Below the pieces are notes generated by a model. It was given only the letters and a program-made list of their open reading frames with translations, made no database searches and had not been told where the DNA came from. DNA of 64,000 bases from Pelagibius litoralis (GTDB lineage: Bacteria; Pseudomonadota; Alphaproteobacteria; Kiloniellales; Kiloniellaceae). The stretch covers positions 1 through 64,000 of the forward strand of contig NZ_JAAQPH010000007.1 in the NCBI RefSeq assembly GCF_011683915.1. Direction: 5' to 3'. Of this stretch, positions 2,740 to 59,335 are shown piece after piece. The stretch's first letter is position 1. Each line of letters begins with the position of its first letter. Both the position numbers and the translations under genes were made by a program.

Positions 2740-3432
2740 GTGACGTTTCCCCGACTACTTAGGCATGGATTAAGGCGGTGCTATCGCCGTCAGGCAAGGT
2801 GCTACTCAAGCATCCGGCTTGAGAAGGTCGGCAGCGACTATGGCGGTTGGGTTTTGCCGGTTGATCTGATCCAACCGGACTGGGTCTGCTATGCCGGTGG
2901 CGTCGGGGAAGACATTACTTTCGATCGTGAGATGATCGAGCGTTTTGGTTGCCGGGTATTTGCATTTGATCCGACGCCAAGGGCCGCCGCCCACGTCGAG
3001 CAGCATGCCGAGGGTCTCGGCAATTTCCGGTTCCTGCCCGTGGGGCTGTGGTCGGAGGATACTGTGCTGCGCTTCTATGCGCCGCGGGACCCGGCGCACG
3101 TTTCTCACTCTATTGTTAACCTGCAGGAAACTGACGCCTATTTCGAAGCGCCTTGTCGAACCGTATCGTCGCTGATGAGCGAACTTGGGCACAATAAAAT
3201 CGATCTGCTGAAAATCGATATCGAGGGCGCCGAGCACGAGGTGGTGCGGTCCATGTTTGCGCAGGGTGTTTTCCCGACGCTCTTGTGCATGGAAATCGAT
3301 CAACCGGCACCCCTGTTAGCAATTGCCTCGACGGTGAGGCGGGTTCGCAACGCTGGTTACAGGCTTGTCAGCGTTGACGGCTGGAATTTTACCTTCGTGC
3401 AGGCAGAGGCTCTGCCGCCGGGTACAGCTTAA
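2740..3432 (+). CDS. FkbM family methyltransferase
   Basis: A 230-aa SAM-dependent methyltransferase of the FkbM family, members of which O-methylate sugars in glycans and natural products. The family hallmark LLKIDIEGAEHEVVRSM is at about residues 155-171, and a SAM-site-like stretch (CYAGGVGEDITFDREMIERF) is near residue 50. The start is GTG at 2740. It is the first gene after the JUMPstart leader and ends 9 nt before the next gene, which has an AAGGAG ribosome site. Its likely role is to methylate a sugar in the product of operon A; the acceptor cannot be read from sequence. Confidence 0.8.
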   Translation: MTFPRLLRHGLRRCYRRQARCYSSIRLEKVGSDYGGWVLPVDLIQPDWVCYAGGVGEDITFDREMIERFGCRVFAFDPTPRAAAHVEQHAEGLGNFRFLPVGLWSEDTVLRFYAPRDPAHVSHSIVNLQETDAYFEAPCRTVSSLMSELGHNKIDLLKIDIEGAEHEVVRSMFAQGVFPTLLCMEIDQPAPLLAIASTVRRVRNAGYRLVSVDGWNFTFVQAEALPPGTA

Positions 3433-3441
3433 GGAGATGTG

Positions 3442-5921: not shown

Positions 5922-5970
5922 TCTCCACTACGGTCGAGGGCGCAGTGAAACCACAAGGCAGGGTTCGAAG

Positions 5971-6924
5971 TTGGTAGGGTTTTCCATCATTACGCCGGTA
6001 TTGAATATGGCGGGCACGATACGTGACTGTATTGAGAGCGTCGCATGCCAAATTGATGATGTTGAAGCGGTCCAACACATCATAGTAGATGGTGGGTCTG
6101 ACGATGGCACGCTGGACGTTATCTCGGACTATCCACATATCGAACTGATACATGAACCAGCACCTGGAATCTATGTAGCGATGAACCGAGGGATTGCAGC
6201 CGCGCGACACGAGGTCGTCGGCATAGTGAATGCTGACGATCTTTTGGAGATCGGCGCTCTGGGTGTCGTATCTGGGGTGCTCGAGGCAAACCCTCGAGTA
6301 CAAATCGTAGCCGGTCTGGCGGTTGTGGAACGTCTCCACGACGGTGACCGAAAATTTGTGCGGATCGCGCCTAGCCGTGGACACAAGAGTCAAAGCTGGG
6401 ATCTACTCTTTCACGGGTCGATGCCCACCAATGCCTATTTTTTTAGGCTTTGTGTATTCAAAGAGAATGGGTCCTTCAATGTCGACTTTGCCGTCTGTTC
6501 AGACAGAGAGTTGCTGATCAGATTCAAGCTGGCAGGAATTCTGACATTGCCAGTGAAGCGGATACTATACCGATATTTGGCACATGAAGGGTCAACAACG
6601 CTCAACGCCGAACGTCGGCATGATGTGCAGATGTGCAACGAGCGTATTGCTATTGCAGAAAGCTATCTTGCGAAAGGGCAGCCGTCATCGTCTGTGGTTC
6701 GTCGATTCCGCGAATGGATCGCTGCCGAACGGGCACGAGTTATGATGGCTAGATCAAGGGCCGGAGAATGGCGTTTGGCTTGGCAGGAGGCGCAGATGGG
6801 ATTAAAAGCCTCTACACAGGGGTTCCTCGTATTTCTTCTCAGAAGAGCGGTGGCAATCCCTACCGCTCGTGCCAGAAGATGGCCCGCGACCCTGTCCTGT
6901 GCCTGTCGCAAGTTTTTTGCATAG
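5971..6924 (+). CDS. Glycosyltransferase family 2 (WcaE-like)
   Basis: A 317-aa GT-A enzyme. It opens with FSIITPVLNMAGTIRDCIES, followed by HIIVDGGSDDGTLDVI and PGIYVAMNRGIAAARHEVVGIVNADD, which carries the DxD-like NADD and resembles colanic-acid WcaE-type transferases. The start is a TTG at 5971 with weak purine-rich sequence upstream; no better in-frame start is seen. Codon use looks less GC-rich than in the manC gene that follows, which may mark separate acquisition. The last ~78 bases were checked as a possible start for the next gene and rejected in favour of 6947. Confidence 0.8.
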   Translation: MVGFSIITPVLNMAGTIRDCIESVACQIDDVEAVQHIIVDGGSDDGTLDVISDYPHIELIHEPAPGIYVAMNRGIAAARHEVVGIVNADDLLEIGALGVVSGVLEANPRVQIVAGLAVVERLHDGDRKFVRIAPSRGHKSQSWDLLFHGSMPTNAYFFRLCVFKENGSFNVDFAVCSDRELLIRFKLAGILTLPVKRILYRYLAHEGSTTLNAERRHDVQMCNERIAIAESYLAKGQPSSSVVRRFREWIAAERARVMMARSRAGEWRLAWQEAQMGLKASTQGFLVFLLRRAVAIPTARARRWPATLSCACRKFFA

Positions 6925-6946
6925 CGGTCGAAACAGCGGGCTGAGA

Positions 6947-8389
6947 ATGTTATCCCAAACCCAGACCATACACCCGGTTCTCCTCTGCGGTGGCAGTGGT
7001 ACCCGTCTCTGGCCTCTGTCACGGGCGCTCTATCCCAAGCAAGTCCTGAAGCTCGAGTCCGAAGAGGCCTTGATAATTCAAACTGCCCGCCGGGCGCAGG
7101 GCAAATGCTTCACGGCGCCTCTCGTTATCTGCAACGAGGAACACCGGTTCTTGATTTCTAGGCTGCTTCAGGAAGCCGACATAACGCCGTCGGGCGTCGT
7201 GTTGGAGGCGGAGGGACGGAACACCGCACCGGCCGCAGCCGTCGCCGCGCTCTTCGCCTTGAACCGGGCTGCGGAGCGGGAAGATCCCCTGCTGCTCTTA
7301 CTGCCCTCGGATCATGCGATTCCCGATGGAGAGGCTTTCCAGAGCTGTGTTTCAAAGGGGGTTGAAGCCGCGCAAGATGGCCGGATCGTTACCTTCGGCA
7401 TAAAGGCGAGTCGAGCAGAGACCGGTTATGGCTATATTGAGATAGACGCCGCCGCCGCCTGCATCTCGGCACCGGTGGAGGTGCTTCGCTTTGTCGAGAA
7501 ACCCGATGAGGTGACCGCGGAGGAGTTCTTACAGGGCGGGCGGCACTGCTGGAACAGCGGCATTTTTCTTTGCGGCGCCAAGACTTTGCTCAGTGAAATG
7601 GAGCGTTTTGCGCCGGACGTGTTAAGCGCTGCCCGGACGGCATTTGAACAGGGTAGACAGGATCTGGATTTTTTCAGGCTTGATGCGGCAGCCTATCATC
7701 GATCACCCAACATCTCTATTGACCATGCAGTCATGGAACGGACGGAGAGGGCTTCCGTACTTGCTGTCGATTTCGAATGGAGCGACATCGGCTCGTGGCA
7801 GGAGCTTTGGTCGCGGTCACCGAAAGATGAGGCGAATAACGCTCTCGTTGGAGACGTCATCGTCCAGGCTACCACCGGCAGCTTCGTCTACGGCGCATCG
7901 AAGGGCTTGACCGTTGTTTCCGGCCTGGAGGATGCGGTGGTCATCAATACGGAAGACGTGGTTCTGGTAACCAAGCGAAGTGGCGCAAGCCCGATCAAGG
8001 CAGTACTGGATCGCTTGGCCGCAGAGGGGCGCAGCGAACATCTCTCTCATGCCAGTGTCTATCGTCCTTGGGGGTCGTATAAGATTTTGGTGCACGGCAC
8101 GCAGTTTCAGGTCAAGGAAGTGAACGTGAATGCCGGGGCGGCACTCTCGCTCCAATATCACGAACACCGTTCCGAGCATTGGATCGTCGTTGAGGGTGTT
8201 GCCGAGGTGACCCGCGATTCGGATACCTTCGAGCTGAACCGGAGCGAGTCGACCTTCATCGCCCCTGGGCAGGTTCATCGTCTGATCAACTCAGGTGCCA
8301 AGGCGTTGAAAATCATCGAGATTCAATGTGGTGACTACCTGGGTGAAGATGACATCGTGCGCCTGGAGGACGACTATGGCCGGCGATAG
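6947..8389 (+). CDS. manC: Mannose-1-phosphate guanylyltransferase / mannose-6-phosphate isomerase
   Basis: A 480-aa type II bifunctional enzyme making GDP-mannose, the precursor for Gmd and Fcl downstream. The N-terminal nucleotidyltransferase has LLCGGSGTRLWPLSR at about residues 12-26 and FVEKPDE near 180. The C-terminal cupin isomerase has YRPWGSY, LQYHEHRSEHWIVVEG and FIAPGQVHRL. Length is typical for ManC/CpsB/XanB. The ATG at 6947 gives the canonical N-terminus; an upstream in-frame ATG at 6869 lies inside the preceding gene. Confidence 0.93.
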   Translation: MLSQTQTIHPVLLCGGSGTRLWPLSRALYPKQVLKLESEEALIIQTARRAQGKCFTAPLVICNEEHRFLISRLLQEADITPSGVVLEAEGRNTAPAAAVAALFALNRAAEREDPLLLLLPSDHAIPDGEAFQSCVSKGVEAAQDGRIVTFGIKASRAETGYGYIEIDAAAACISAPVEVLRFVEKPDEVTAEEFLQGGRHCWNSGIFLCGAKTLLSEMERFAPDVLSAARTAFEQGRQDLDFFRLDAAAYHRSPNISIDHAVMERTERASVLAVDFEWSDIGSWQELWSRSPKDEANNALVGDVIVQATTGSFVYGASKGLTVVSGLEDAVVINTEDVVLVTKRSGASPIKAVLDRLAAEGRSEHLSHASVYRPWGSYKILVHGTQFQVKEVNVNAGAALSLQYHEHRSEHWIVVEGVAEVTRDSDTFELNRSESTFIAPGQVHRLINSGAKALKIIEIQCGDYLGEDDIVRLEDDYGRR

Positions 8390-8393
8390 AAAC

Positions 8394-8435
8394 GGCCGAA
8401 TTCTGAGGAGAGGGCCAGGCAGGGCACATTCGGCC
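8394..8435 (+). other. Hairpin between manC and next glycosyltransferase
   Basis: GGCCGAAT at 8394-8401 pairs with ATTCGGCC at 8428-8435, followed by TTTC. The 8-bp stem encloses a 26-nt purine-rich loop. It could modulate read-through or mRNA stability inside the operon, but the T-run is short and it may be chance. Confidence 0.35.
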
Positions 8436-8461
8436 TTTCGTCAGCCAAGACCGTTGATGGG

Positions 8462-9379
8462 GTGGATTTGAAAGTCTCTGTGCAGATTGCGACGCGCGAC
8501 CGTTTCGAACCGCTATGTCGCGCGATCTCAAGCGTCTTCGACCAGGACTACGATAACTTCGAGATTATCGTCCTGGATGATGCGAGCGAAGCGTCGGACA
8601 TCTGCGATCGCCTTCGCAGTAAGTTCGACGATCCCAGGCTTCGTTGTTTTCGAAATACCGAGTGGTCGGGTGTTTCCGCCGTGCGGTCGCGCATGATGGA
8701 TCTTGGGGACGGCGAGGTCTATTGCTCGATTGACGACGATGGCGCCTTTGCTCACGCATCCTGCCTATCTCGTATCGTGGATGCCTTTCTCGCCGATCCG
8801 AAGCTTGGATTGTTGGCCGGAAAGATCAAGGACTACCGCGACGGCCAGGAGCGATTGCTGCTGCCTTTCGGCAAACGAGATCTGATGCGCTCGCCAGAGC
8901 TTCCGGAAGGACGTCACAGGGTTTCCTATTTCCTCGCGGGCTGCTATGCGATCCGGCGCAGCGTTGTCGAGAAGTGCGGCGCTTACCGTCCGGAAATGAT
9001 GTACGGGGAGGAGGAGCTCGACATCTCCTACCGTGTTATTGCCGCCGGCTACGACATTGTTTACGAGCCGGAGATCGTAGCCTACCATTGGCCGGAGCCT
9101 TCAGCCTTCAAAATGGATCAACCGCGCAGCGAGATCTATTTTCAGATCAAGAATAGATTTCACCTCGCTTATGCTTACCTGCCGGCTCGATTTATACCTT
9201 CCTATATCGCCGTCTGGTTGGTCCGATATCTGGTTACCTGTCTGCGACGGGGTCTTGTCTCCGACTACTTGGTTGGCGTAAAGGACGGGGTCCTAGGCAT
9301 GCGTCGGGGACCTCGCCAAACGTTGGGCAATGACGCAGTGACCTATCTGCGAAGTAACTATGGGCGTCTTTGGTACTGA
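8462..9379 (+). CDS. Glycosyltransferase family 2
   Basis: A 305-aa GT-A glycosyltransferase. It starts VSVQIATRDRFEPLCRAISSVFDQDYDNFEIIVLDDAS and carries a metal site CSIDDDGAF near residue 90, then YGEEELDISYRVIAAGY, an acceptor/base motif common in GT2 (ED-like). The C-terminus (about residues 230-300) has amphipathic segments that may sit on the membrane. The start is GTG at 8462. It lies between manC and fcl, so it may use GDP-mannose or GDP-fucose, but the donor cannot be assigned. Confidence 0.8.
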   Translation: MDLKVSVQIATRDRFEPLCRAISSVFDQDYDNFEIIVLDDASEASDICDRLRSKFDDPRLRCFRNTEWSGVSAVRSRMMDLGDGEVYCSIDDDGAFAHASCLSRIVDAFLADPKLGLLAGKIKDYRDGQERLLLPFGKRDLMRSPELPEGRHRVSYFLAGCYAIRRSVVEKCGAYRPEMMYGEEELDISYRVIAAGYDIVYEPEIVAYHWPEPSAFKMDQPRSEIYFQIKNRFHLAYAYLPARFIPSYIAVWLVRYLVTCLRRGLVSDYLVGVKDGVLGMRRGPRQTLGNDAVTYLRSNYGRLWY

Positions 9380-11760: not shown

Positions 11761-13125
11761 TTAAGCCGTAGGGATCTTCTGAAGCAGAGGATCGAGCGCC
11801 TTCATAACCCTGCCGAGCACATCGGCCTGGCGGTCGGCGTAGCCGGCGGCGGTCGCGGCCAATGCGTCGCGACGGCCGGTATCTGCCAACAGGGTTGCCA
11901 GGGTCTTCTGCAACTCACCCTCGTCAGCGACCTGACACAAGGCGCCGGCGGCCTGCATCCCCTCCGCCATCTGACTGAAATTTGTGGTGTGCGGCCCGGT
12001 CAGAACCGCGCAGTCCAGTTTTGCCGGTTCCAGCAGATTATGCCCGCCCGTCGGCACCAGAGAACCGCCGACGAAAACGATGTTCGCCAGATGGTACCAC
12101 AGGCCCATTTCGCCCATGGTGTCGGCGAGATAGATATCCGTATCGCCGGTGATGGCCTCACCCCGGCTGCGCTGCGCGACGGTTAATTGCTTCGCTTCCA
12201 AGATCTCGCGGATCGCCTCCGCCCGATTGGGATGACGCGGTACGATCAAGGTCAGCAGGCTCGGGTGCAGGGCGGTCAGCATCCGGTGGACCTGCGCGAC
12301 AATTTCGTCCTCCCCGGAGTGGGTCGAGGCCGCGAGCCAGAGCGGTCGTCCGGCGATCTCGGCACGAAGCCTTTCAAGTGCGGCAGGATCGGCGGACAAT
12401 GGCGGTGCGGCCGCCTTCAGATCGCCGGCGCAAAGGGTATCCCCAGCGCCGAGGTCGCGAAGATGCGCCTGATCCTGGGGCGAACGGGCCATGACCAGAC
12501 TGAAATGCCCGAGAAGTTCTGCGATCAGCGGGCGGACCCTGCGCCAGGAACGGTAGGAGGCTGGAGAGACACGGCCGTTGAGCAGTACGAGTTCGGTGCC
12601 GGCCTGCGAAGCGGAGCGGATCAGGTTGGGCCAGAATTCCGACTCGACCATTATCCCCAGCGCCGGCCGCCAGTGATCTAGGAAGCCGGCGACAGCCCCT
12701 GGCAGGTCAACCGGTACGTATTGATGGATCACCCCGGCGGGTAGGCGCTCGGCCATCAACTTGGCGGAGGTCACGGTGCCGCTGGTCATGAGCAGGGAAA
12801 GAGCGGGCTGCTCGCGCTGCAGGCGTTCGATCAGGGGCAGCAGCGATACCGTCTCGCCGACACTGGCGGCATGCAGCCAGACAAGCGGGCCTTCGGGGCG
12901 CGCCAGCTTGGTCCTGCCCAGGCGCTCTTCGATGCGAAAGGGGTCTTCCCGGCCCCGTGTCAGGCGGCGGCGCAGATAGGTGCGGACCAGGGGAGCACCG
13001 ATCCCGGTCAGCAGGCGATAGCCGGCGAAAACCGTGCGGGCGACAGTAGAGCCCAGGCCGCCTGCATCCCTACCTCTGTCGGCTTTACCCTGATCGCTAC
13101 GTTCTGCCTCCGGCGGCATTGCCAC
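11761..13125 (-). CDS. waaA: 3-deoxy-D-manno-octulosonic acid transferase
   Basis: A 454-aa GT30 enzyme that adds Kdo to lipid A at the inner membrane. Visible features: an N-terminal hydrophobic anchor segment (TVFAGYRLLTGIGAPLV), VWLHAASVGE with the catalytic Glu, ESEFWPNLI, WLAASTHSGEDEI, VPRHPNRA and FVGGSLVPTGGHNLLEPA. These are canonical WaaA/KdtA motifs. It is the last gene of the minus-strand run starting at 23168, beside pseudaminic acid genes rather than lipid A genes. True Kdo transfer is most likely; a paralogue acting on another ulosonic acid cannot be excluded. Confidence 0.9.
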   Translation of the reverse strand: MAMPPEAERSDQGKADRGRDAGGLGSTVARTVFAGYRLLTGIGAPLVRTYLRRRLTRGREDPFRIEERLGRTKLARPEGPLVWLHAASVGETVSLLPLIERLQREQPALSLLMTSGTVTSAKLMAERLPAGVIHQYVPVDLPGAVAGFLDHWRPALGIMVESEFWPNLIRSASQAGTELVLLNGRVSPASYRSWRRVRPLIAELLGHFSLVMARSPQDQAHLRDLGAGDTLCAGDLKAAAPPLSADPAALERLRAEIAGRPLWLAASTHSGEDEIVAQVHRMLTALHPSLLTLIVPRHPNRAEAIREILEAKQLTVAQRSRGEAITGDTDIYLADTMGEMGLWYHLANIVFVGGSLVPTGGHNLLEPAKLDCAVLTGPHTTNFSQMAEGMQAAGALCQVADEGELQKTLATLLADTGRRDALAATAAGYADRQADVLGRVMKALDPLLQKIPTA

Positions 13126-13146: not shown

Positions 13147-14085
13147 TCAGGTATTGGCGGATTTGGCGAAGCTTGCCGCCAGACCTTCATCTACACTGAA
13201 GGATGGGACCCAACCAAGCGCCTTGCAAACCGCATCGTTGTCGATGGTGAGGGAGGTCGTCAGTGCTTCGACCGCAGCTGGGCGCCCTAGCAACTGCCCG
13301 GCCAGGACCAGAAGGCCGACCGGGAATGGCATCAGGCGGGCCTTTCGGCCGGATGCGCCAGCGATACGCCGCACCAGATCGGGGGTCGAGAGGTCGGTTC
13401 CGTCCGACAACGCGAGCGGTGCCTCAGGCACCTTTTCCACTGTGAGGGCAGCCTGAACCGCCTCTGTCAGGTTGCCGATGTAGAGCAGGCTGCGGCGGTT
13501 GTGGATGCTGGCCAGGGGCAGAGGCAGTCCTTTGGCGATCAGGCTCTCAAGACGTCTGATGTTGCCGGGGGCGCCCGGCCCGTAGATCAAGGGCGGGCGC
13601 AGGACGACCAACTCCGTCGCTGTGCCGCCAGTAGCTGCCGCAAGCGCGATCTCTGCCTCGCGCTTGCTCGTCTGGTAGGGGCTCGCCGTATCGGGGCCGG
13701 TTTCGGCAAGCATGGCGCCGATGGAACTGATGAAGACGATGCGGGCAACGCCGGCTGCGGCGGCCTGGCGTGCCAAGTTTGCGCTGGCTTCGACGTTCAC
13801 CCGGCGGAAGGCGACAAGAGGGTCCGCTGCCTCCTCGCGCAGGATATGGGCCCTTGCGGCGCAATGGACCACGGCATCGACGCCTTCCAGACCGGCCGTC
13901 CAGTCGGTTGTCCCGTCTATGGGGCCGCTGACCAGCCTCTCGACTCCCTCCGGCAGAACAGCCGCGCTGCGCCGTACGCTGCCGCGCAGGGTCCAGCCCC
14001 GTGCGATCAGGTGGCGGCAGACAGCCGTGCCGACGAAGCCGTTTGCCCCGGTTACGAGAGCCCGGCGCACAGCCCTAGAAGACAA
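13147..14085 (-). CDS. NAD-dependent epimerase/dehydratase (SDR)
   Basis: A 312-aa extended SDR. ALVTGANGFVGTAVCRHL is the NAD-binding motif, VVHCAARAHILRE and SPYQTSKREAE (Tyr-x3-Lys) follow, then VLRPPLIYGPGAPGN. This set resembles WbpV/WbnF-type UDP-HexNAc 4-epimerases or 4-reductases of O-antigen clusters. The start is TTG at 14085, overlapping the upstream glycosyltransferase by 11 nt. Its place between a glycosyltransferase and waaA suggests a sugar nucleotide for the same glycan; the exact substrate is not readable. Confidence 0.75.
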   Translation of the reverse strand: MSSRAVRRALVTGANGFVGTAVCRHLIARGWTLRGSVRRSAAVLPEGVERLVSGPIDGTTDWTAGLEGVDAVVHCAARAHILREEAADPLVAFRRVNVEASANLARQAAAAGVARIVFISSIGAMLAETGPDTASPYQTSKREAEIALAAATGGTATELVVLRPPLIYGPGAPGNIRRLESLIAKGLPLPLASIHNRRSLLYIGNLTEAVQAALTVEKVPEAPLALSDGTDLSTPDLVRRIAGASGRKARLMPFPVGLLVLAGQLLGRPAAVEALTTSLTIDNDAVCKALGWVPSFSVDEGLAASFAKSANT

Positions 14086-14860
14086 GGCGTTTCAGCACGG
14101 CGCGCGCGCCGTAGTGCGCCATGCACCAGGCGGCATGGATCAGGTTCAGCTTTTCGACGCCCCGGTAGACTGACCAGGTCCAGGCGGCCGAGCGTTTTGG
14201 TTTGCTGGAGAGCGAGCCTTTTACCACGCGATATCGGGCGAGGTCCTGTTGCAGGCCACGGGCGAGAAAACCGCGCTTGAGGATCGATAGCCAGAGAATG
14301 AAATCGTCGCGCCGGACCTCGGTCATGCGGATCGGCCCGGTCTTCTGGGTATCGACCATGCCTGTCAGTGTGGCGATGGCGGTGTTCTTCAACAGCTGGG
14401 CGTAGGTCAGGCTGTCGGGAATGGAGAACAGGCGGCCGAGCTGTCTGCCGTCTTCGTTGATGCGGCGAAAGGCGGTATAGGACACGGCGCAGTCCCATTG
14501 CTTCATGAATGCGACCTGGCGCTCCAGCTTTTCCTGCAGCCAGAGATCGTCGCTGTCGAGAAAGGCGATGAAGCGGCCCTGGGCCTGCTCCAGTGCCGCA
14601 TTGCGCGCGCGGCCTACACCACCGTTCTCGGTCAGGCGTAGAAGTTTGATCCTGAGGTCTTTCTCGGCGGCGGCCTGGACGATTGCGGCCGTGCTGTCGC
14701 TGGAAGCATCGTCGGCAACCAGCATCTCCCAGTCGGTCAGGCTTTGTCGCTGGACCGACGCGATGGTCTCGGCGATGAAGGCCTCGGCGTTGAAGGCTGC
14801 GGTGATCACCGAAACCAGCGGGCGCGTGCCCGGTGCGAATCCTGCAGGCTTCTCGCTCAC
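14075..14860 (-). CDS. Glycosyltransferase family 2
   Basis: A 261-aa GT-A enzyme: PLVSVITAAFNAEAFIAETIASV, MLVADDASSDSTAAIV, GVGRARNAALEQAQGRFIAFLDSDDLW (DxD), then a short C-terminal tail. The frame stays open to 15139, but the GTG at 14860 is preceded by GGAGAGG and puts the GT2 motif near the N-terminus, so it is chosen. It is co-directional with the pse genes and overlaps the SDR gene downstream. It could be the pseudaminic acid or adjacent-sugar transferase; that is inference from position. Confidence 0.82.
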   Translation of the reverse strand: MSEKPAGFAPGTRPLVSVITAAFNAEAFIAETIASVQRQSLTDWEMLVADDASSDSTAAIVQAAAEKDLRIKLLRLTENGGVGRARNAALEQAQGRFIAFLDSDDLWLQEKLERQVAFMKQWDCAVSYTAFRRINEDGRQLGRLFSIPDSLTYAQLLKNTAIATLTGMVDTQKTGPIRMTEVRRDDFILWLSILKRGFLARGLQQDLARYRVVKGSLSSKPKRSAAWTWSVYRGVEKLNLIHAAWCMAHYGARAVLKRLVF

Positions 14861-15399
14861 GCCACCTCTCCGGCAATTGCCCGTCTGATGGCGCACCGTA
14901 GTACGATCAAAAACAGTCCATATAGGGTGAGGCCAAGAGCTGTCTGATCGATCGGCAGTTCCGGCGGCCCGGGCTCTATCAGCATCTTTCAGGCTGGTGT
15001 CGCAAAAGTATGGTCCGTTCGATCTTTCACGGTAGCAGTGACCCGGGTCTGAGAAATCGAATGCAGTCTGCGAAGATGACAAAGGCGTTGATAATTCTAC
15101 CAATCGGAAGCCGGGTAGCCGCCACCAGTCTGACGGCAACCGGGAACACCAAGATTGCTATCTCGATCTTCGCGGTTTTACCGGTCTTGGGCAAGTCGAT
15201 TGACCTGTTTTTCGCGTTGTCCGGGTTCTGAAACCGAGTGTTTGAACTGTGATTGGCAGGGCGATGACCTACGGCATAGCTGCCGGGCGACGTTGAAGTC
15301 CTCGGCGGCTTGAAAGCCGAGCGTCCCGCCGCGGTAGCGGGCTTTTTTGGCTCTGAAGGGGCTCCCTGCGTCGGTGACGAGCGAGGCCGGCAGAAAGAA
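14861..15399. other. Gap inside the pse/LPS gene run with hairpins
   Basis: A 539-bp stretch between pseI and the glycosyltransferase with no convincing gene. On the plus strand CTCGGC/GCCGAG (15301-15321) is followed by a weak CCCGC/GCGGG hairpin (15325-15341) and six T (15343-15348), which looks like a weak plus-strand terminator with no plus-strand gene before it. The gap may separate a distal transcription unit (GT2-SDR-waaA) from the pse operon. A plus-strand frame at 15010-15231 has no ribosome site or family match. Confidence 0.4.
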
Positions 15400-16440
15400 C
15401 TAAGTCAGCAGATCCCAACTCAGCGGTGTTCCGCGCTTTATGGCGTTTTTTGCCGGTTTGCCTAAGAAGTCTCTCAGGTGCTTGGGCGGCAGGCCGTGGC
15501 CGGGTCGAATAGCGCGCAGGTTCTTTTCGGTGAAGGGCTGACCAGCGGCGATGTCCTCGACCACATAGAGCGAGCGGCGGAAGGCGGCATTGCCCAGTTC
15601 GCTCGGCTTGCGGGCGTAGCCGGCCTGGCCCAGGGCCGCCCAGGTCGTACGGCAGGTCTCACAGAGCTGCTGCAGTTCCTGCGGTTCAAGTGAAAAGGCG
15701 GCATCGGGGCCGCCGTCGGCGCGGTGCAGGGTGAAGTGTTTCTCGATGACATGGGCGCCCAGGGCGACGGCGGCGATGGGAACCTCCGGCCCCAGGGTGT
15801 GGTCCGACAGGCCGGAGACCGCGCCGAAGCGTTTGGTCAGGTCGGACAGGGTGCGAAGATTGACCTCTTCCGGGGGCGTCGGGTAGCCGCTGATGCAGTG
15901 CAGCAGCACGATCTCTCCGGAGCCGTGGGCCCTAGCGGTTTCCATGGCCTCGTCGATTTCGTCGAGATTGGCCATGCCGGTCGAAATGATCATCGGTTTG
16001 CCGGTCTTCGCCACCTTCTCGATCAACGGCAGGTCGGTGACTTCGAAGGAGGCGATCTTGTAAGCCGGCGCACCGAGGCCTTCGAGAAAGTCGACCGCCG
16101 TTGCATCGAAGGGGCTGCTGAACACGGCGAGGCCGAGTTCTCCTCCTTTGGCGAAGATCGCCTCGTGCCACTCCCAGGGCGTGTGTGCCCATTCATACAG
16201 CTCATAGAGGGTTTTTCCGTCCCACAAACCGCCTTCGATACGAAAGTCTTGACCATCGTGATCGATGGTCATGGTGTCGGCGGTATAGGTTTGCAGCTTT
16301 ACGGCATCGGCGCCGGCCGAGGCGGCGGCCTCGACCAGTGCCAGGGCGCGCTCCAACTCGCCGTTATGGTTGCCCGACAATTCCGCGATGATATAGGGCG
16401 GCTGCCCGGGGCCGATCTGGCGGCCAGCAATGTCGATCAT
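15400..16440 (-). CDS. pseI: Pseudaminic acid synthase
   Basis: Condenses 2,4-diacetamido-2,4,6-trideoxy-altrose with phosphoenolpyruvate to pseudaminic acid. The 346-aa protein has the NeuB-type barrel (YIIAELSGNHNGELERAL, DAVKLQTYTADTMTID, FSSPFDATAVDFLE, HCISGYPTPPEEVNL, GLSDHTLG, VIEKHFTLHR) and a C-terminal SAF domain from about residue 285 (YVVEDIAAGQPFTEKNLRAI). The LQTYTADTMTID wording fits PseI rather than NeuB. ATG 16440 is chosen, 40 nt after the pseG stop; the open frame upstream overlaps pseG. Confidence 0.92.
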   Translation of the reverse strand: MIDIAGRQIGPGQPPYIIAELSGNHNGELERALALVEAAASAGADAVKLQTYTADTMTIDHDGQDFRIEGGLWDGKTLYELYEWAHTPWEWHEAIFAKGGELGLAVFSSPFDATAVDFLEGLGAPAYKIASFEVTDLPLIEKVAKTGKPMIISTGMANLDEIDEAMETARAHGSGEIVLLHCISGYPTPPEEVNLRTLSDLTKRFGAVSGLSDHTLGPEVPIAAVALGAHVIEKHFTLHRADGGPDAAFSLEPQELQQLCETCRTTWAALGQAGYARKPSELGNAAFRRSLYVVEDIAAGQPFTEKNLRAIRPGHGLPPKHLRDFLGKPAKNAIKRGTPLSWDLLT

Positions 16441-16480
16441 CTTCTCAAAGATCCTGGTGACTTTGCATTGTAGCGGCGTT

Positions 16481-17968
16481 TCAGGGGTAGTTATACAACA
16501 GTCCCCCGGCGCCGGGTCCGTATTGGGCACGTTGGAACAAGGCGACAGAGGCTTCGTTTTCCGGCAGGACCTCGGCGACGATCACTGCCTTCTGCTGCCA
16601 GCGGCGGGCAAACCGCAACGCCTCCTCGGCGACACGCTGACCGCGATGCTCCGGCGAAATCAGGATCGAGACCTCAAACGCCGGCGTTTGCGGTGCTGCT
16701 GCTGGTGCCGCGACCGGGTCGAGGCGTAGAACGCCTGCTGGTTTCCTGTTCAGAGTGATCATTGTCAGCAGGCATTCAGGGTCGGCAAGGCGCGCGGTGA
16801 ACCATTGGTGGTGCTCTTTAGCGCTGGGGACCTGTGGGTTACGGGCGAAGCGGCGGCTTGTCGGGTGCCTCTGCCACTCCAGGATCAGGCCTTCGTCATT
16901 GGCCGTGGCCAGGCGCAAGGCCACAGGCCTGCCGTTTTTGGCCTGTCCTGGGGGCACAAGCTCAAGGCCCAGGCGGTCACAGCCGCGTCCGTCGCAGATC
17001 CTGGCCGCTTTGGCAGCCATATCCGACAGCGCATCACCGTCGTCAGCGAGGTCGCGCAGTGCGCCCGCGATCCGATCGGCCAGCGCATCGCGTGGTCCGG
17101 AGATCACGCGGGCGGCGCCTGTCGTGGCAATCCTTTCGGCGATCAGGCGCTGATTCTCCGCGACCACCAACATCAGGCTCGGCAGGCCGAGACAGCAACG
17201 TTCCCAGGTCGAGGTGCCGGCGGCTCCAATGGCCAAATCAGCCCGGGCCATCAGCTCCGGCATGTTGGCCACATCGACATGCAGCCGCACTTCCTTACCC
17301 ATGGTCTCGATCTGCGCGCTTACAGCCGACCGATGCGGCGCAGCCGCCCCGAGCACCACATCGACGGCCAGGGGAAGGCCGCTTTCGGCGATGGCCTGGA
17401 GCGCGACGAGGCTATGGTTGTCGGGATCGGTGGCGCCGATGCTGACGAGAATGCGATTCAGTCTGCCGGCGCCGGTTCTGCGCGCGAGGCTGGTTTGACG
17501 ATTGCCGGCGAAAGCCGGTCGCAAAAGCGCGTAGTCACAGCCGGTGAGCAACCGGGTTCCCGGCGGCACGAGCCCGGCGTAATCATCTGATGCGCGGCCC
17601 GGTGTTTGGTCGAGAAGAACATCGCAATCGTGCGGGCGGTCGGCCAGGTCGTCGATCACCAGGATATTCTTTGCCCAGCCCCGGCATCCTGCTTCCCAAC
17701 CCGCATCGCGTTCGTAGTGGTCGACGATGAGCCAGTCGGCGCCGTCAGGCCAGTTTTTCCGGATGTTCTCTGCCTCGGCAGCCATAATGCTGTCCAACAC
17801 CAGGATGTCTTCGCCGGCGAGAGCCGGGATAATCTCCAATGCTGTTGCATTGACGGCGAAACCGCACTGCCAGCCTAGTTTTTCAAGGGATTTCGCGAGA
17901 GTCAGACATCGCATGACATGACCACCGCCCAGGGCGGCAGAGGCGTCGGCGCGAAAGACGGTTCGCAT
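16481..17968 (-). CDS. pseG: PseG hydrolase fused to a GNAT (PseH-like) acetyltransferase
   Basis: A 495-aa fusion. Residues about 1-340 are PseG, which removes UDP from UDP-2,4-diacetamido-2,4,6-trideoxy-altrose: FRADASAALGGGHVMRCLTLA, WLIVDHYERD, DQTPGR, ILVSIGATDPDN, IGAAGTSTWERCCLGLP. From about residue 350 a GNAT domain follows (RLATANDEGLILEWQRHPTSR, HHQWFTARL, ISPEHRGQRVAEEAL). No separate pseH is seen, so this domain probably performs the N4-acetylation. ATG 17968 is one base after the pseF stop; ATG 17983 would overlap it. Confidence 0.9.
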   Translation of the reverse strand: MRTVFRADASAALGGGHVMRCLTLAKSLEKLGWQCGFAVNATALEIIPALAGEDILVLDSIMAAEAENIRKNWPDGADWLIVDHYERDAGWEAGCRGWAKNILVIDDLADRPHDCDVLLDQTPGRASDDYAGLVPPGTRLLTGCDYALLRPAFAGNRQTSLARRTGAGRLNRILVSIGATDPDNHSLVALQAIAESGLPLAVDVVLGAAAPHRSAVSAQIETMGKEVRLHVDVANMPELMARADLAIGAAGTSTWERCCLGLPSLMLVVAENQRLIAERIATTGAARVISGPRDALADRIAGALRDLADDGDALSDMAAKAARICDGRGCDRLGLELVPPGQAKNGRPVALRLATANDEGLILEWQRHPTSRRFARNPQVPSAKEHHQWFTARLADPECLLTMITLNRKPAGVLRLDPVAAPAAAPQTPAFEVSILISPEHRGQRVAEEALRFARRWQQKAVIVAEVLPENEASVALFQRAQYGPGAGGLLYNYP

Positions 17969-17969
17969 C

Positions 17970-18698
17970 CTAGGGACTCTCATTTCCGGCCGCTGCGGCC
18001 CGCTCGGCGGCCATGGCGAGATGGATCTCGGCCTCGCGGAAGTCTTCCTCATTGTCGATGTCGAATGACCGCTCCCGCGGCATTACATAGCCGACCAACG
18101 GTTGAGCTAGGTAACTTCCGGCCGTGCGAAACGCCTTCACGTCCAGAACGTGAACGGCTCCGTTGGGGCGAAAAACCTTCGGTAGGGTCTTGGTCGGCTG
18201 TTCGAGATATTGTTGAAACATCGGCGTCAGGCCGGCCCCGGCATCCATCTGAAAAGCTGCAAAGGGCGTATGGGAAAATTCGGCAACGCTCATTACAAAA
18301 GGTCGGTCTCGCTCAGTGAAAAGCTCATAGGCTCCGCGAACATCTTCAGCGGACCTAAAGGGGCAGGTGGGCAGTAGAATGACGATCGTTTCATAGGTGT
18401 CGCCGGCGTCCTCCAACGCTTCCAAAGCGTGCAGAGCGACATCGTCGGCCTCGGCGGGGTCGCGGGCCAATTCCGGCGGTCGCATAAAGGGAACGTCGAT
18501 ACCAAGGGCCCGCGCCTGGTCGGCGATGGCCTCGTCCTCGGTGGAGAGCACCAGGCGATCGATGACGCCACTGTCCCAAGCCGCTTCGGCGGCCCAGGCG
18601 ATCAGGGATTTGCCGCCCAGGTTACGGACGTTTTTCCTGGCCAGCCGCGTGGAGCCGCCTTTGGCGGGAATGAAGCCGAGTGTTGAGTTCTTTGCCAA
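17970..18698 (-). CDS. pseF: Pseudaminic acid cytidylyltransferase
   Basis: Activates pseudaminic acid as CMP-Pse. The 242-aa protein has the CMP-sugar synthetase start FIPAKGGSTRLARKNVRNLGGKSLIAW, then LVLSTEDEAIADQA, ILLPTCPFRSAEDV and SFDIDNEEDFREAEI, which fit PseF/NeuA-type enzymes. The start is probably TTG at 18698, with AGGAG about 8 nt upstream. It sits between the methylase and pseG in one minus-strand operon. Confidence 0.9.
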   Translation of the reverse strand: MAKNSTLGFIPAKGGSTRLARKNVRNLGGKSLIAWAAEAAWDSGVIDRLVLSTEDEAIADQARALGIDVPFMRPPELARDPAEADDVALHALEALEDAGDTYETIVILLPTCPFRSAEDVRGAYELFTERDRPFVMSVAEFSHTPFAAFQMDAGAGLTPMFQQYLEQPTKTLPKVFRPNGAVHVLDVKAFRTAGSYLAQPLVGYVMPRERSFDIDNEEDFREAEIHLAMAAERAAAAGNESP

Positions 18699-18731: not shown

Positions 18732-19358
18732 TTATGGCTTCTCGAAAAGCCACCAGATTGTGTTGTCGCTGTTGTCCATTGGCTTCCATAGAAAGCCGTA
18801 GTCGCGAACCCGCAGATCGGGATGGCGTTCCAGGTAGTAGCTGCCGAAGTCGCGCTTGAAGAGGTGCCCTTCCATGCCGCGGTACTCGATCTCTACCGGG
18901 TTCGGCGAGAAGTACTCGATACAGGCGATGTAGCGACTGGAAACCCGCACGATCTCGTCGACCACGGAGGCGAGGTTGGGCGGTGCGACATGGATTAGTA
19001 CACCGCAGGTAAAGACAAGGTCGATGCTGTTGTCTTCGAAGGGCAATTCTCCGCCATGTCCGTTGCGGATGTCGGCTGCGCTGAGTGCCGGATTGCTGCG
19101 TGCTATTTCGCAAACCTGCGCATTGGGCTCGACGCCATGCAACTCCGGCAGATAGCCGCTGAGGGCGATCAGGTTCCGGCCGGTGTTGCAACCGACCTCC
19201 AGTGCGCTCTGCGGCGCCGGGGAGATCGCCGTTTTCAGGATGCGGCCCCAATAACGCCGCGTCGCCCGAAGGTTCTCCTCGGAGATCCGGTTGCCGCTGC
19301 GCTCGGCATATTCATAGCCGAAGTCCGAAGACCAGAGTTCAACCTGTCTGTTCGTCAT
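18732..19358 (-). CDS. Pseudaminic acid biosynthesis-associated methylase
   Basis: A 208-aa class I SAM-dependent methyltransferase: EVGCNTGRNLIALSGYLPELHGVEPN at about residues 53-78 and LPFEDNSIDLVFTCGVLIHV near 110. A family of this kind is known only as a companion of Pse genes and is thought to methylate pseudaminic acid or a precursor. Its position between pseC and pseF supports this. The ending GSYYLERHPDLRVRDYGFLW is also family-like. The exact substrate and timing are unproven. Confidence 0.82.
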   Translation of the reverse strand: MTNRQVELWSSDFGYEYAERSGNRISEENLRATRRYWGRILKTAISPAPQSALEVGCNTGRNLIALSGYLPELHGVEPNAQVCEIARSNPALSAADIRNGHGGELPFEDNSIDLVFTCGVLIHVAPPNLASVVDEIVRVSSRYIACIEYFSPNPVEIEYRGMEGHLFKRDFGSYYLERHPDLRVRDYGFLWKPMDNSDNTIWWLFEKP

Positions 19359-19492: not shown

Positions 19493-20716
19493 TCAAACGT
19501 TCAGGCAGTCGTGCAGCGCGTCAACGACCCGTTCCACATCATCCGTCTCCATTCCGGGGAAAAGCGGAAGGGAGAGCGTGCGCGCGTAATAGCTTTCGGC
19601 GCCCGGCAGGCTGATCGTACCGTACCGTTCTTGATAGTAAGGCTGCAGGTGAACGGGAATGTAGTGTACCTGTGTCCCGATACCTTGTGCCGTCAGTTGT
19701 TGCATGAGGGCAGCGCGGCTGATGCCCGCGGCTTCAAAGTCGATCAGGACGGCGTAGAGATGCCAGGCAGGCTCGCAGTTCTGCGACCGGGTGATCGGGC
19801 GTACCAGGGGCGCGAAGTCTGAGAGCAGGCGGTCATAGTGTTCGGCCAATGCCCGGCGCTTGGTGACGAAGCGCGTCAGTTTTTTGATCTGACTGAGGCC
19901 GAGCGCACATTGGATGTCGGTCACCCGGTAATTCAGTCCCATCTCCGGCATCTCATAATACCAGGGATTGATCTTGCCTTGCTCATCGTAGGCAAGCGCC
20001 GTATTGCGTAATTGCTCCGGGTCGCGAGTCATGCCGTGCGAGCGAAATCGGGCCAGGCGCTCAGCCAGCTCTCTGCTGTTCGTCGTGACCGCGCCGCCTT
20101 CACCCATGACGATGGTTTTCACGGGGTGAAACGAGAAGGTGGTCATCTCCGTCAGCCGTCCGTCGCCGATCGGTTTTGCGGCGTCGTTACCCTTAAGATA
20201 GCGGCTGCCAATGGCATGAGCGGCGTCATCGATTATGGCGAGATCCTGCGCCTTGGCGAGGGCGCTTATCTTGGCAAGATCGGTGCACTGTCCGGCCAGG
20301 TGTACCGGCATGACCGCTTTCACCGGCCCGTCGGCGCGGGCCAGTGCATCAGTCAGGTGTTCGTTGTCCATCAAGCCGCTGTGCGGACAGCAGTCGGCGA
20401 AAACGACCTCGGCGCCGGTCAGGCGCACGGCGTTGGCGGTCGCCAGAAAGGTTACGCTGGGCACGATGGCACGGTCGCCGGGTCCAAGGTCCAGAGCAAG
20501 GGCCGCAAGGTGAAGCGCCGCCGTTCCGTTCGCGCAGGCAATGGCGTAGCGGGCCTCTGTAACTTCGCAGATCGCGGCCTCGAATGCCGCTACGGCGGGG
20601 CCGGTGGTCAGCCAGTCGCCACGCAGAACGGCTGTGACGGCCGCGATATCGTCTTCTTCGATAAGCTGCCGGCCGTAGGGAAGGAAGGACATCGCTGGGT
20701 GGGTTACTTCTCGCAT
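19493..20716 (-). CDS. pseC: UDP-4-keto-sugar aminotransferase PseC
   Basis: PLP enzyme of the DegT/DnrJ/EryC1 family that aminates the 4-keto product of PseB. The 407-aa protein has CANGTAALHLAALALDLGPGD, PVHLAGQCTDL, IIDDAAHAIG and the PLP lysine in TFSFHPVKTIVMGEGG (K200). HYIPVHLQPYYQERYG near the end is also typical. ATG 20716 overlaps pseB by 13 nt; ATG 20692 is an alternative that keeps all motifs. Confidence 0.9.
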   Translation of the reverse strand: MREVTHPAMSFLPYGRQLIEEDDIAAVTAVLRGDWLTTGPAVAAFEAAICEVTEARYAIACANGTAALHLAALALDLGPGDRAIVPSVTFLATANAVRLTGAEVVFADCCPHSGLMDNEHLTDALARADGPVKAVMPVHLAGQCTDLAKISALAKAQDLAIIDDAAHAIGSRYLKGNDAAKPIGDGRLTEMTTFSFHPVKTIVMGEGGAVTTNSRELAERLARFRSHGMTRDPEQLRNTALAYDEQGKINPWYYEMPEMGLNYRVTDIQCALGLSQIKKLTRFVTKRRALAEHYDRLLSDFAPLVRPITRSQNCEPAWHLYAVLIDFEAAGISRAALMQQLTAQGIGTQVHYIPVHLQPYYQERYGTISLPGAESYYARTLSLPLFPGMETDDVERVVDALHDCLNV

Positions 20717-21741
20717 TCCGCGATCATTTTAGTCAGCCGCTCGGCGCAGAGCCAGTCGCCGTTGATGTTGCTGGCAAAGCGAAAACCGGCCTCAACGGGT
20801 TTGGCGCCCGAGTTCGGGAATTGTTGATGCAACTGCTCCCAGAACTCCGGAAGGATCATATAGCGGTCCGGCAACTCATAAGTGCTGCGGGCATCGTCTT
20901 CGGTGATCAGGACCTCGTGGATCTTCTCGCCCGGTCGGATCCCGACGACTCGGTGTGGCAGGTCGGGCGCCATGAAACGAGCGAGTTCGGTAACCTTCAT
21001 GCTGGGAATCTTGGGCACGAAAATCTCGCCGCCTTTCATCAAGGCGAGGCAGGAAAGAACGAAGTCCACGCCTTGCTGCAGGGTAATCCAGAAACGGGTC
21101 ATTTCCGCGTCAGTAATAGGCAGGCTGTCACAGTCCTCTTTGATCAGCTTGCGAAAGAAGGGAACGACACTGCCCCGCGATCCAAGGACGTTGCCATAAC
21201 GCACCACCGAAAACCGGGTGCCGATGGAGCCGCTCAGATTGTTGGCCGCAACAAAGATCTTGTCTGAAGCCAGCTTGCTGGCGCCGTAGAGATTGACCGG
21301 ACTGGCGGCCTTGTCGGTGGAGAGGGCGATGACCTGTTGGACGCCGCAGCTCAGTGACGCCCGCACCACGTTCTCAGCGCCGATAACATTCGTTTGTATG
21401 CATTCGAAGGGATTGTACTCGGCCGCCGTAACATGTTTCAGGGCCGCGGCATGGACGACCACATCAACCTCGCGCAGTGCCAACTCAAGGCGGCTGGCAT
21501 CGCGGACATCGCCAATGAAATAGCGAATTGCGGGGTACTGTTCCTTTGGGAACGCCTGACCCATTTCGTACTGTTTCAGTTCGTCGCGCGAGAAGACGAT
21601 CACCCGGCGCGGCTTATAGCGCTCCAGGGCCGTGCGGACGAACCTTTGTCCGAATGAGCCCGTGCCGCCTGTTATCAGGACCGATTTTCCGTCCAGGTTC
21701 AGGCACTCGGCCTCTGAGAATCTGTCTTCTTCCGACTTCAT
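20704..21741 (-). CDS. pseB: UDP-N-acetylglucosamine 4,6-dehydratase (inverting)
   Basis: First step of the Pse pathway: removes water from UDP-GlcNAc and inverts C5. The 345-aa protein has SVLITGGTGSFGQRFVRTAL, VIVFSRDELKQYEM, HAAALKHVTAAEYNPFE, ALSTDKAASPVNLYGASKL (Tyr-x3-Lys) and a conserved RPGEKIHEVLI. The ATG at 21741 gives the usual family N-terminus; an upstream TTG at 21810 only adds a non-conserved tail. It lies 234 nt after the RfaH-like gene in the same direction. Confidence 0.93.
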   Translation of the reverse strand: MKSEEDRFSEAECLNLDGKSVLITGGTGSFGQRFVRTALERYKPRRVIVFSRDELKQYEMGQAFPKEQYPAIRYFIGDVRDASRLELALREVDVVVHAAALKHVTAAEYNPFECIQTNVIGAENVVRASLSCGVQQVIALSTDKAASPVNLYGASKLASDKIFVAANNLSGSIGTRFSVVRYGNVLGSRGSVVPFFRKLIKEDCDSLPITDAEMTRFWITLQQGVDFVLSCLALMKGGEIFVPKIPSMKVTELARFMAPDLPHRVVGIRPGEKIHEVLITEDDARSTYELPDRYMILPEFWEQLHQQFPNSGAKPVEAGFRFASNINGDWLCAERLTKMIAECEK

Positions 21742-21975
21742 AGTCTGTCGGTTATGCGCCGAATTCCTTAACAAATAGTATGAATCATGAATTAACCGGT
21801 AAGGAGACAAGCTTATGCGGCTGATTTTCCGCTGGTTGACAGGGCGATCAAGGTCGACAGCGTTGGTTAACGGCGGAATCGCTGATCAATTCCCGTCGTG
21901 CCGCCTGACTGCCTATCTGGATGACTGGCCTGCTCAAACAAGTATTGGACACCAGACCTTCCGGCACGACGGAAC

Positions 21976-22476
21976 TCAGGGCCCTGGTACCACAGCACCC
22001 AGCGGTGCCTGGACCTGAACCTTGCGGCCGAGCAGGTCGAGCAACAGGATGACCCTCTCCTGATCCGCCATCTTCTCGAAAAAACCAAAACAGTCGGCCA
22101 GAGCGCCCGAAACAATTCGTAAGGCTTCGCCTTTCTGAAAGGTGGGCGCCTGCAGTTGGATAAGCCCGTCATCGCCCTCTCGCGCCCGGATTGCCTCGAC
22201 GACGCCTTCAGCAACGGCCGAGGGGCGCTCACCATTGCAGATCAATTGACTCACGCCCAGGGTCCCATTGATCGAGCGCCAGGGCGCTTTCTCAAGGTCC
22301 AACTGGACGAAGATATAGCCGGGAAAAAGGGGGGCCTTGACCAGATCACGGCGACGCGCGTGGCGCCTTTCGCGCCAGTAGCGGGGCAGATAGGGCTCGA
22401 AACCTTGGCGCGCCAGATTCAGGCGCGCCGTTTCCTCGGCGCGAACCAAGGTTTGTGCGACATACCAGTGTTTCAT
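21976..22476 (-). CDS. RfaH/NusG-like transcription antiterminator
   Basis: A 166-aa NusG paralogue. The NGN domain (HWYVAQTLVRAEETARLNLARQG, APLFPGYIFVQLD, INGTLGVSQLI) matches RfaH-type spacing, and the C-terminal KOW-type part has GEALRIVSGALADCFGFFEK and RVILLLDLLGRKV. Such specialised factors travel with RNA polymerase to allow long polysaccharide operons to be transcribed. Its ATG overlaps the stop of the winged-helix gene by 4 nt, so the two are co-translated. It precedes the pse genes, and an ops-like target lies at 2489-2500. Confidence 0.87.
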   Translation of the reverse strand: MKHWYVAQTLVRAEETARLNLARQGFEPYLPRYWRERRHARRRDLVKAPLFPGYIFVQLDLEKAPWRSINGTLGVSQLICNGERPSAVAEGVVEAIRAREGDDGLIQLQAPTFQKGEALRIVSGALADCFGFFEKMADQERVILLLDLLGRKVQVQAPLGAVVPGP

Positions 22477-23168
22477 GGCAGCTTATCTGCGTTGACTGGC
22501 TGCTTGCGCCTGGAAAGACGCAGAAGGCTTGGGAAGAAGACTTTCTCCACGCCAAATTGGCCGATCATACGCTCGTAAGCGCCCTGTGGATCCTTCATGT
22601 CGGTGATCACCAGGATCTCGCCGGGGGAGAGTTTCGTCAGGCTGCGCACCACCGGCGTGCCGGCCAGTCGCTGGCGATTCGTGCTCTCGTCCAGGACTGC
22701 AGAGACTTCCAATCCACAATCCAGTGCCGCCAGTATGGCAATCTCGCAGAGGTCCCCGGCGCCGACGAAGGTAATACACTGGCAGCCCTGGGATTTGCTG
22801 TGTTGAAACAGATCGGAGCAGTCTTCGCGTGCAAGGCGGAAGAAACCGAGCGAGCGAGTCAGGAATTTCGCCGTGAGACGGGCCTTTTCGCTGAAACCCT
22901 TAGCGGTAAGATAATAGGCATAGCGGCGGGCCGGCGCTTTTCGGGTCTTGACCAAACCCTTGCTGATGCAGCGCTTCAGATAGATGTTCGTCAGGCCCAA
23001 TGCGATGCCCAATTCCGCCGACAAGCCGCGTTGGGTTACACGCGCTTCGGATTCGATAGCGTCGAGCATCATGCGGGTCGAATCGGCTTCATGGTCAGAT
23101 TTTATCGGCATTTGCGCTTGCGCAGGCAAGATGTCCTCCGAGTCGCGAGGATGAAGCTGACGCCCCAT
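22473..23168 (-). CDS. Winged-helix / Rossmann-domain regulator, EPS-associated MarR-like
   Basis: A 231-aa paralogue of the protein at 1557-2204: shared KSD..., LGIALGLTNIYLKRCISKG in the winged helix, ARRYAYYLTAKGFSEKARL, then a Rossmann-like half starting GAGDLCEIAILAALDCGLE and ending VFFPSLLRL. The start at 23168 is preceded by GAAGG four bases away; a second in-frame ATG at 23111 has no such site. It is the first gene of the RfaH-pse run, with a dyad 47 nt upstream. It probably regulates this operon, perhaps in response to a metabolite bound by the C-terminal domain. Confidence 0.78.
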   Translation of the reverse strand: MGRQLHPRDSEDILPAQAQMPIKSDHEADSTRMMLDAIESEARVTQRGLSAELGIALGLTNIYLKRCISKGLVKTRKAPARRYAYYLTAKGFSEKARLTAKFLTRSLGFFRLAREDCSDLFQHSKSQGCQCITFVGAGDLCEIAILAALDCGLEVSAVLDESTNRQRLAGTPVVRSLTKLSPGEILVITDMKDPQGAYERMIGQFGVEKVFFPSLLRLSRRKQPVNADKLP

Positions 23169-23214
23169 TACCTTCGGAGCCTCTGTCTAGGCCTCTCCCC
23201 TGTGTTCTGTCAAG

Positions 23215-23231
23215 TGTTCACGATATGAACA
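23215..23231 (-). promoter_or_regulatory. Putative operator upstream of second winged-helix gene
   Basis: TGTTCACGATATGAACA is a perfect 6-bp dyad (TGTTCA/TGAACA) with a 5-nt spacer. Read on the minus strand it gives GTTCAT-ATC-GTGAA, matching the motif at 1475-1488 in eleven positions with identical spacing. It lies in the 120-nt divergent region before the exonuclease gene. Confidence 0.55.
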
Positions 23232-59307: not shown

Positions 59308-59335
59308 GCGGAGAGGCTTTCTTTTTGTGGAGAGG

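Follow-up and report, generated by a model that had tools for sequence, protein, structure and literature searches.

In Escherichia coli, RfaH is an NGN-KOW paralogue of NusG associated with envelope-glycan operons in which a hairpin stands before the ops core GGCGGTAGCGTG (JUMPstart), and its residues K10, H20, R23 and R73 (with Q24) make contacts around the flipped base T6 of ops (PMC5995543). A NusG paralogue and a second regulator stand at the head of each Bacteroides capsule operon (UpxY/UpxZ), and LoaP of the dfn system requires a leader RNA hairpin (PMC12691694). Co-translational, ops-free loading was proposed for monomorphic RfaH homologues, a class that adjoins its own operons (PMC13015549), and Wang et al. 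(2020) found RfaH cluster CL4 associated with a helix-turn-helix (HTH) regulator and glycan genes (PMC7593976). Here we analyzed positions 1 to 64,000 of contig NZ_JAAQPH010000007.1 of Pelagibius litoralis (the window), in which the gene of a winged-helix and Rossmann regulator (WH) and that of an RfaH-like NusG paralogue (RFH) overlap at the head of a pse operon.

Judged from its sequence, the pair is one copy of a widespread, conserved alphaproteobacterial cassette: operator/promoter, WH, RFH, a hairpin-ops element where present, and glycan genes. In the hairpin-ops element, an RNA hairpin whose arms covary is fused to an ops core of the E. coli type (GCGGTAGC); the element usually lies 50-110 nt 3' of the pair. 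The cassette is seen in its gene order, in the overlap of the two coding regions, in the operator that marks the WH promoter, and in the hairpin and ops downstream in most relatives; ops also co-occurs with RFH, and its base 6 covaries with RFH residues. The operator, the hairpin beside ops and the covariation of reader and site are absent from an earlier note on this DNA.

All functions of WH, RFH, the operator and hairpin-ops are what we infer, and we regard as probable a two-tier cassette in which WH regulates itself and RFH loads at hairpin-ops, here in trans. A WH dimer would bind GTTCA-N5-TGAAC and control its own promoter, as a repressor in most relatives, where the site fills the promoter spacer, and possibly in either mode in the Pelagibius clade. 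Its Rossmann domain, most like the uridine-nucleotide-binding domain of unknown function (DUF) of WbaP, would make WH respond to a nucleotide or nucleotide-sugar. Co-translated with WH, RFH would load on RNA polymerase paused at hairpin-ops, and the loaded factor would suppress termination and pausing through long glycan operons. The pse operon would have lost its ops, and the single RFH would mainly serve the glycan loci at 2489 and about 71.9 kb in trans. RfaH/ops control would then extend from mainly gammaproteobacteria to an operon-borne, self-contained alphaproteobacterial cassette with a dedicated promoter regulator.

RFH differs from E. coli RfaH in being encoded alongside its targets and translated together with a DNA-binding regulator, and the hairpin here abuts or merges with ops, whose position 1 is relaxed (T or G). 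Unlike the second Bacteroides regulator UpxZ, a trans-inhibitor of other UpxYs, WH is a winged HTH (wHTH)/Rossmann protein with its own operator, while the LoaP hairpin is of the UNCG type and without ops. The text on CL4 mentions no operator, Rossmann domain, ops-hairpin or co-translation, and the likeness to it is by description only (PMC7593976). In the open-access literature, no paper was found describing the WH operator, the alphaproteobacterial hairpin-ops or the base-6 covariation.

The WH-RFH pair and its conservation

The pair and its upstream region comprise the following features.

23216-23230, no strand: WH operator GTTCATATCGTGAAC, palindrome GTTCA-N5-TGAAC, ending 2 bp 5' of the -35 hexamer
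23185-23213, minus strand: promoter-like TTGACA-17-CTAGAC, kept in Pelagibius-clade relatives (compared directly with L018 and L042-L046)
22473-23168, minus strand: WH, winged-helix and Rossmann regulator
21976-22476, minus strand: RFH, RfaH-like NusG paralogue

Both open reading frames (ORFs) were present and overlapped by ATGA, and nine co-directional genes followed 3' of RFH and reached 11761, in agreement with the earlier note, which had described such a pair heading glycan genes. Counted from ATG, WH has 231 aa. The TTG at 23129 is more likely to be the start, giving 218 aa, since it is accompanied by the Shine-Dalgarno sequence GGAGGA (both within 23127-23139) and is in register with the starts of relatives. 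A winged-helix domain (HTH_24, E 1.3e-7) was detected in WH, followed by a Rossmann-type domain; RFH (166 aa) carries an NGN domain (PF02357, E 1.7e-18). A PDB search with RFH matched E. coli RfaH (E 8e-27), and in the tree RFH and E. coli RfaH, the latter on a long branch, were split from alphaproteobacterial NusG at 100/99. These domain hits, the Rossmann model, the PDB match and the tree support the identities given in the earlier note, and RFH did not group with housekeeping NusG, the outcome which that note had named as contrary to its view. RFH is an NGN-KOW paralogue distinct from the housekeeping protein, as is expected of an RfaH, and it scored 117.3 bits against the RfaH equivalog model TIGR01955 (under the cutoff 144.5), 68.1 against the UpxY model NF033644 (under 100), and 44.7 against the LoaP model NF033641 (far under 125).

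The scan of 84,980 species gave 459 relatives, of which the best 80 GTDB loci, holding 81 WH genes, were retained. RFH adjoined 73 of the 81 WH genes, far more than chance would give, in the order WH-RFH in 70 cases and RFH-WH in 3, so the joint conservation of the pair on which the earlier note depended was found. An identical -4 nt overlap was shared by 52 pairs, and eight WH genes were orphans, one of them at a contig end. In addition, within the order WH was present in 21 of 61 genomes, and RFH directly followed almost every full copy. The close relatives that are named were Pelagibius and Kiloniellaceae metagenome-assembled genomes (MAGs). Glycan loci are often mobile, and the orphan WH genes would fit hitch-hiking of WH and RFH in mobile glycan islands without functional coupling; but the ATGA coupling is kept in divergent genomes, the order is fixed in 70 of 73 pairs and the operator upstream is shared, which makes this explanation very improbable.

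In the three loci of reversed order (L059, L064 and L081; two gammaproteobacterial MAGs and one Muproteobacteria MAG), GGCGGTAGCGTG was located 3' of the pair and GTTCA-N5-TGAAC was not found 5' of WH. In genome G054, the N-terminus of WH and a fragment of RFH are fused in a short ORF (L039:1474-1851) that terminates at an intact hairpin-ops, as might result from an internal deletion that left ops in place.

The hairpin-ops element and its reader

Most loci carried TTCACCCG-NNN-TGCGGTAGC-N-TG in the interval from the pair to the next gene downstream, the last part being the E. coli ops core and the first part the right arm of the hairpin. An element in cis was found in 38 of the 50 pairs with Q24-type RFH and enough sequence (within 300 nt, ending 56-109 nt past the module), and one-mismatch variants were seen in L026 and L033 among the misses of the exact pattern. 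Moreover, the presence of hairpin-ops tracked RFH across the 61 genomes of the order, the element occurring in 17 of the 22 genomes that have RFH and in 1 of the 39 that lack it (Fisher p 8e-10).

All 60 elements paired at least 4 bases of CACCCG in a hairpin. Their mean minimum free energy (MFE) was -14.7 kcal/mol compared to -12.7 kcal/mol with permuted right arms (0/2000) and -8.8 kcal/mol with the left flank shuffled. Right-arm position 9 switched its pairing (C-G in 15, G-C in 27 and A-U in 3 elements). The MFE of the 71-nt stretch around 2489, taken alone, was ordinary relative to shuffles (z -0.27), and the hairpin is claimed from the 60-sequence comparison, not from single-stretch MFE. 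A gapless MAFFT alignment of the elements was rejected; its left arm was misaligned because the loop length varies, so fold and permutation tests were used instead. Rfam scans at the gathering threshold gave no match at the elements or in the loci of nine relatives, and the JUMPstart RNA (RF01707) aligned end to end at 2463-2500 with 12.8 bits, under the gathering score of 35.

The compensatory changes in the conserved hairpin raise another explanation, in which RFH owes its recruitment mainly to the RNA hairpin, as LoaP does, and the ops core acts as a pause only. Against this, the core stays invariant while the stem sequence, the loop length (spacing 5-14) and the distance vary, RFH covaries with the very base that is flipped into the RfaH pocket, and the LoaP model score is low; we hold such recruitment to be improbable. 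An element of hairpin plus ops would join two pause classes that have been described as biochemically distinct (PMC11001881).

At the ops-contact positions, RFH of the window has L10, N20, R23 and L73. Across 74 RFH sequences, K10 occurred in 7, H20 in 26, R23 in 47, R73 in 3 and Q24 in 57. Ops was present in the locus of 46 of 56 RFHs with Q24 and of 2 of 17 others, and both of the latter carried GCGGCAGC, in which T6 is changed to C. Genome-wide, T6 was found in 14/14 Q24-type genomes and C6 in 4/4 R24/L24-type genomes having an element, one of them directly before pseB. A fifth R24/L24-type genome (G061) had T6, but it also encodes a Q24-type RFH. The C6 matches in L151 and L153 had no hairpin and look like chance. 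Since base 6 has changed naturally together with RFH residues 23/24/72, the specificity of the reader is directly testable.

The AlphaFold2 model gave a beta-barrel for the RFH KOW domain (mean pLDDT 90.6, from a shallow 19-row alignment of close relatives) in place of the RfaH-type fold switch that the earlier note had put up for testing. This resembles the monomorphic RfaH class (PMC13015549), and no autoinhibited fold is predicted, a difference from E. coli RfaH; furthermore, E48 of E. coli RfaH is replaced in all RFH sequences examined. Such features, the location of monomorphic RfaHs beside their operons and the pse operon without ops are what one would expect if RFH were not autoinhibited and worked in cis only, loading co-translationally and without ops onto the polymerase that transcribed it, the ops-like block being a relic or a pause. 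However, ops shows almost no variation at bases 3-8, although pausing in E. coli does not require bases 4, 5, 7 and 8 (PMC5995543); the elements persist distant from RFH and after a broken WH; and they track RFH across genomes, with base 6 covarying with the reader residues. We therefore consider action in cis only to be unlikely, if a little less so than recruitment by the hairpin. An ops-using RfaH relative predicted to be free of autoinhibition bears on the proposed evolution of RfaH, in which ops contacts appear at a late stage, jointly with autoinhibition (PMC7593976).

The WH operator and the Rossmann domain

Of 84 regions upstream of WH, 73 had the palindrome GTTCA-N5-TGAAC at the promoter, and more than one site was present in 47. 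Directly after TTGAC lay 49 of the sites, in a promoter TTGACG-17-nTA whose -35/-10 spacer they fill, the TA being kept 17 nt past the -35 hexamer in 43-44 of them. Repression is the natural reading for most relatives, because the operator fills the spacer. In the window, 2 bp separate the operator from TTGACA-17-CTAGAC downstream, a layout common to its clade, and because the operator abuts the -35 hexamer from upstream the mode is not settled there. The repressor-like protein of the earlier note thus stands as a DNA-binding regulator, and its being a repressor is left unsettled in this clade. Activation by WH, at least in the Pelagibius clade, would agree with this upstream position in the window and close relatives; it is at odds with the spacer-filling sites of most relatives and with the presence of both sites in many promoters, and we rate it as possible, though doubtful.

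In an unbiased search for the promoter pattern TTGACGTTCA-N5-TGAAC alone, 18 of 190 genomes of the class matched, and all 12 loci fetched had the match directly upstream of WH. The genome of P. litoralis has four copies of GTTCA-N5-TGAAC, and only that at 23216-23230 is upstream of a WH gene. The other three, with no WH nearby, were taken as chance; the one examined (C62:215861) lies inside an ORF. In our reading, WH would be an autoregulator dedicated to its own locus.

For the structure comparison of WH, VIA served only as a second look. In the WH model, the Rossmann part reached a pLDDT of about 95. The best fold match of this part was the WbaP DUF (PF13727; Z 10.8, root-mean-square deviation 2.2, 87 residues), a likeness from predicted structure, followed by succinyl-CoA synthetase and Rex repressors (Z 9-10), the latter of wHTH and Rossmann architecture, with a Rossmann domain that binds NAD(H). 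At the sequence level, neither Rex nor the WbaP DUF was significantly detected; one relative each matched PglD_N (E 0.012) and CoA_binding_3 (E 0.021), and the WH profile, searched against PDB sequences, retrieved nothing but weak MarR matches. MarR_EPS (TIGR04176), also found in exopolysaccharide (EPS) context, matched the wHTH half only (58.8 bits, cutoff 88) and is a family of 105-aa proteins that lack the Rossmann domain.

UMP, UDP and UTP stabilise the WbaP DUF (PMC10942596). Because of the likeness of the Rossmann domain to it, we propose, as a hypothesis and not a result, that WH senses a uridine-nucleotide or nucleotide-sugar signal. More tentatively, WH could be such a sensor setting the supply of an autoinhibition-free RfaH relative that reads ops with different residues, with a natural switch from T6 to C6 accompanying residues 23/24/72. 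If so, the recognition of ops would have arisen before autoinhibition as RfaH evolved, and the supply of precursors would gate glycan operons at initiation as well as at elongation.

Sites of action and the pse operon

Two hairpin-ops elements and two further WH paralogues lie on the contig, at the following positions.

1475-1503, no strand: operator-like GTTCATGATGTGAAATTCAAAGCTTGAAC, upstream of the orphan WH
1557-2204, plus strand: orphan WH paralogue (41% identity, E 6e-41), no RFH in the locus
2462-2485, plus strand: RNA hairpin CGGGT-A-GAAG-loop-CTTC-ACCCG
2489-2500, plus strand: ops, exact GGCGGTAGCGTG (pattern match at 2480)
2740-9379, plus strand: glycan operon 3' of ops, with FkbM methyltransferase, glycosyltransferases and mannose-1-P guanylyltransferase/isomerase
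71898-71915 of the contig, minus strand: second hairpin-ops (pattern match), hairpin 71910-71933
About 72227-72788 of contig C62 (L014:8173-8833), minus strand: third WH paralogue, interrupted by the in-frame stops TAG and TAA

The second hairpin-ops is located between the broken WH and an operon with Wzm/Wzt ABC-transporter, sulfotransferase and glycosyltransferase genes. The extended pattern occurred twice in the 6.03-Mb genome, compared to zero for a reversed-pattern control, and no RFH remnant was found by tblastn between the orphan or broken WH and the respective ops. Of the two NusG-type genes in the genome, one is RFH and the other, housekeeping nusG, lies on another contig. Since RFH is the only one of its kind in the genome and both hairpin-ops copies are away from the pair, it probably acts in trans on both loci. 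The ops at 2489 proposed in the earlier note is thus real, and its suggestion of trans action there is well supported by the arrangement of these genes and elements. A congener (G057) is alike, with no ops at the pair and one ops 36 kb away before a family 2 glycosyltransferase (GT2) gene. Ops at target operons, a hallmark of RfaH, is represented by the two exact elements and the cross-genome co-occurrence, and it is missing at the pair's own operon.

Several observations weigh against the proposed explanation. Between RFH and pseB, where the element is found in the close relatives L042 and L043, the pse operon has no recognisable ops, and its elongation control is therefore unproven. Ops in cis was not found within 300 nt in about a quarter of the 50 Q24-type pairs examined. 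RFH lacks the K10 and R73 of E. coli RfaH and usually its H20, so that it must read ops by other contacts, and the R24-type RFHs form essentially one clade, so that the T6/C6 switch may be a single evolutionary event. In addition, the winged-helix half of the WH model had a low pLDDT (about 50-60), and Foldseek with this model gave no match at E <= 0.001. The two-level control of the earlier note agrees with the pairing of an elongation factor and a regulator whose Rossmann domain is of ligand type, and does not agree with the missing ops; its view that the factor serves the operon it heads was not upheld by a recognisable site. RFH may still act on the pse operon, perhaps co-translationally without ops.

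Downstream of the pair, the following features were annotated.

21811-21975, minus strand: gap before pseB, no recognisable ops core; site of hairpin-ops in close relatives
20704-21810, minus strand: pseB (TIGR03589, E 1.7e-152); ATG at 21741 a likelier start than the listed TTG
19493-20716, minus strand: pseC (TIGR03588, E 6.4e-147)
18732-19358, minus strand: Pse-associated methylase (TIGR03587)
17970-18698, minus strand: pseF (TIGR03584, 161.2 bits, under cutoff 205.7)
16481-18052, minus strand: pseG-pseH fusion (TIGR03590 on 29-307 over cutoff, TIGR03585 on 384-511 under cutoff)
15400-16530, minus strand: pseI (TIGR03586, E 9e-151)
14075-15139, minus strand: GT2 (profile match)
13147-14085, minus strand: short-chain dehydrogenase/reductase (SDR) sugar-nucleotide enzyme (profile match)
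11761-13125, minus strand: Kdo-transferase-like glycosyltransferase (PF04413, E 1e-57)

The gap contains an inverted repeat, TTCCGTCGTGCCG...CGGCACGACGGGAA, at 21875-21975 (minus strand), with about 60 nt between its arms. As a candidate mobile repeat it was rejected, being single copy in the genome, and the folding of 21850-21975 was no better than that of shuffles. A promoter and terminator scan of 11.5-23.5 kb gave no signal above shuffle level. PseG is joined to a PseH-like acetyltransferase within a single 523-aa ORF, and the Kdo-transferase-like gene, the last of the operon, might transfer a nonulosonic acid. Elsewhere in the window, an Rfam suhB/mmgR small RNA match over the gathering score was found at 59240-59312 on the plus strand.
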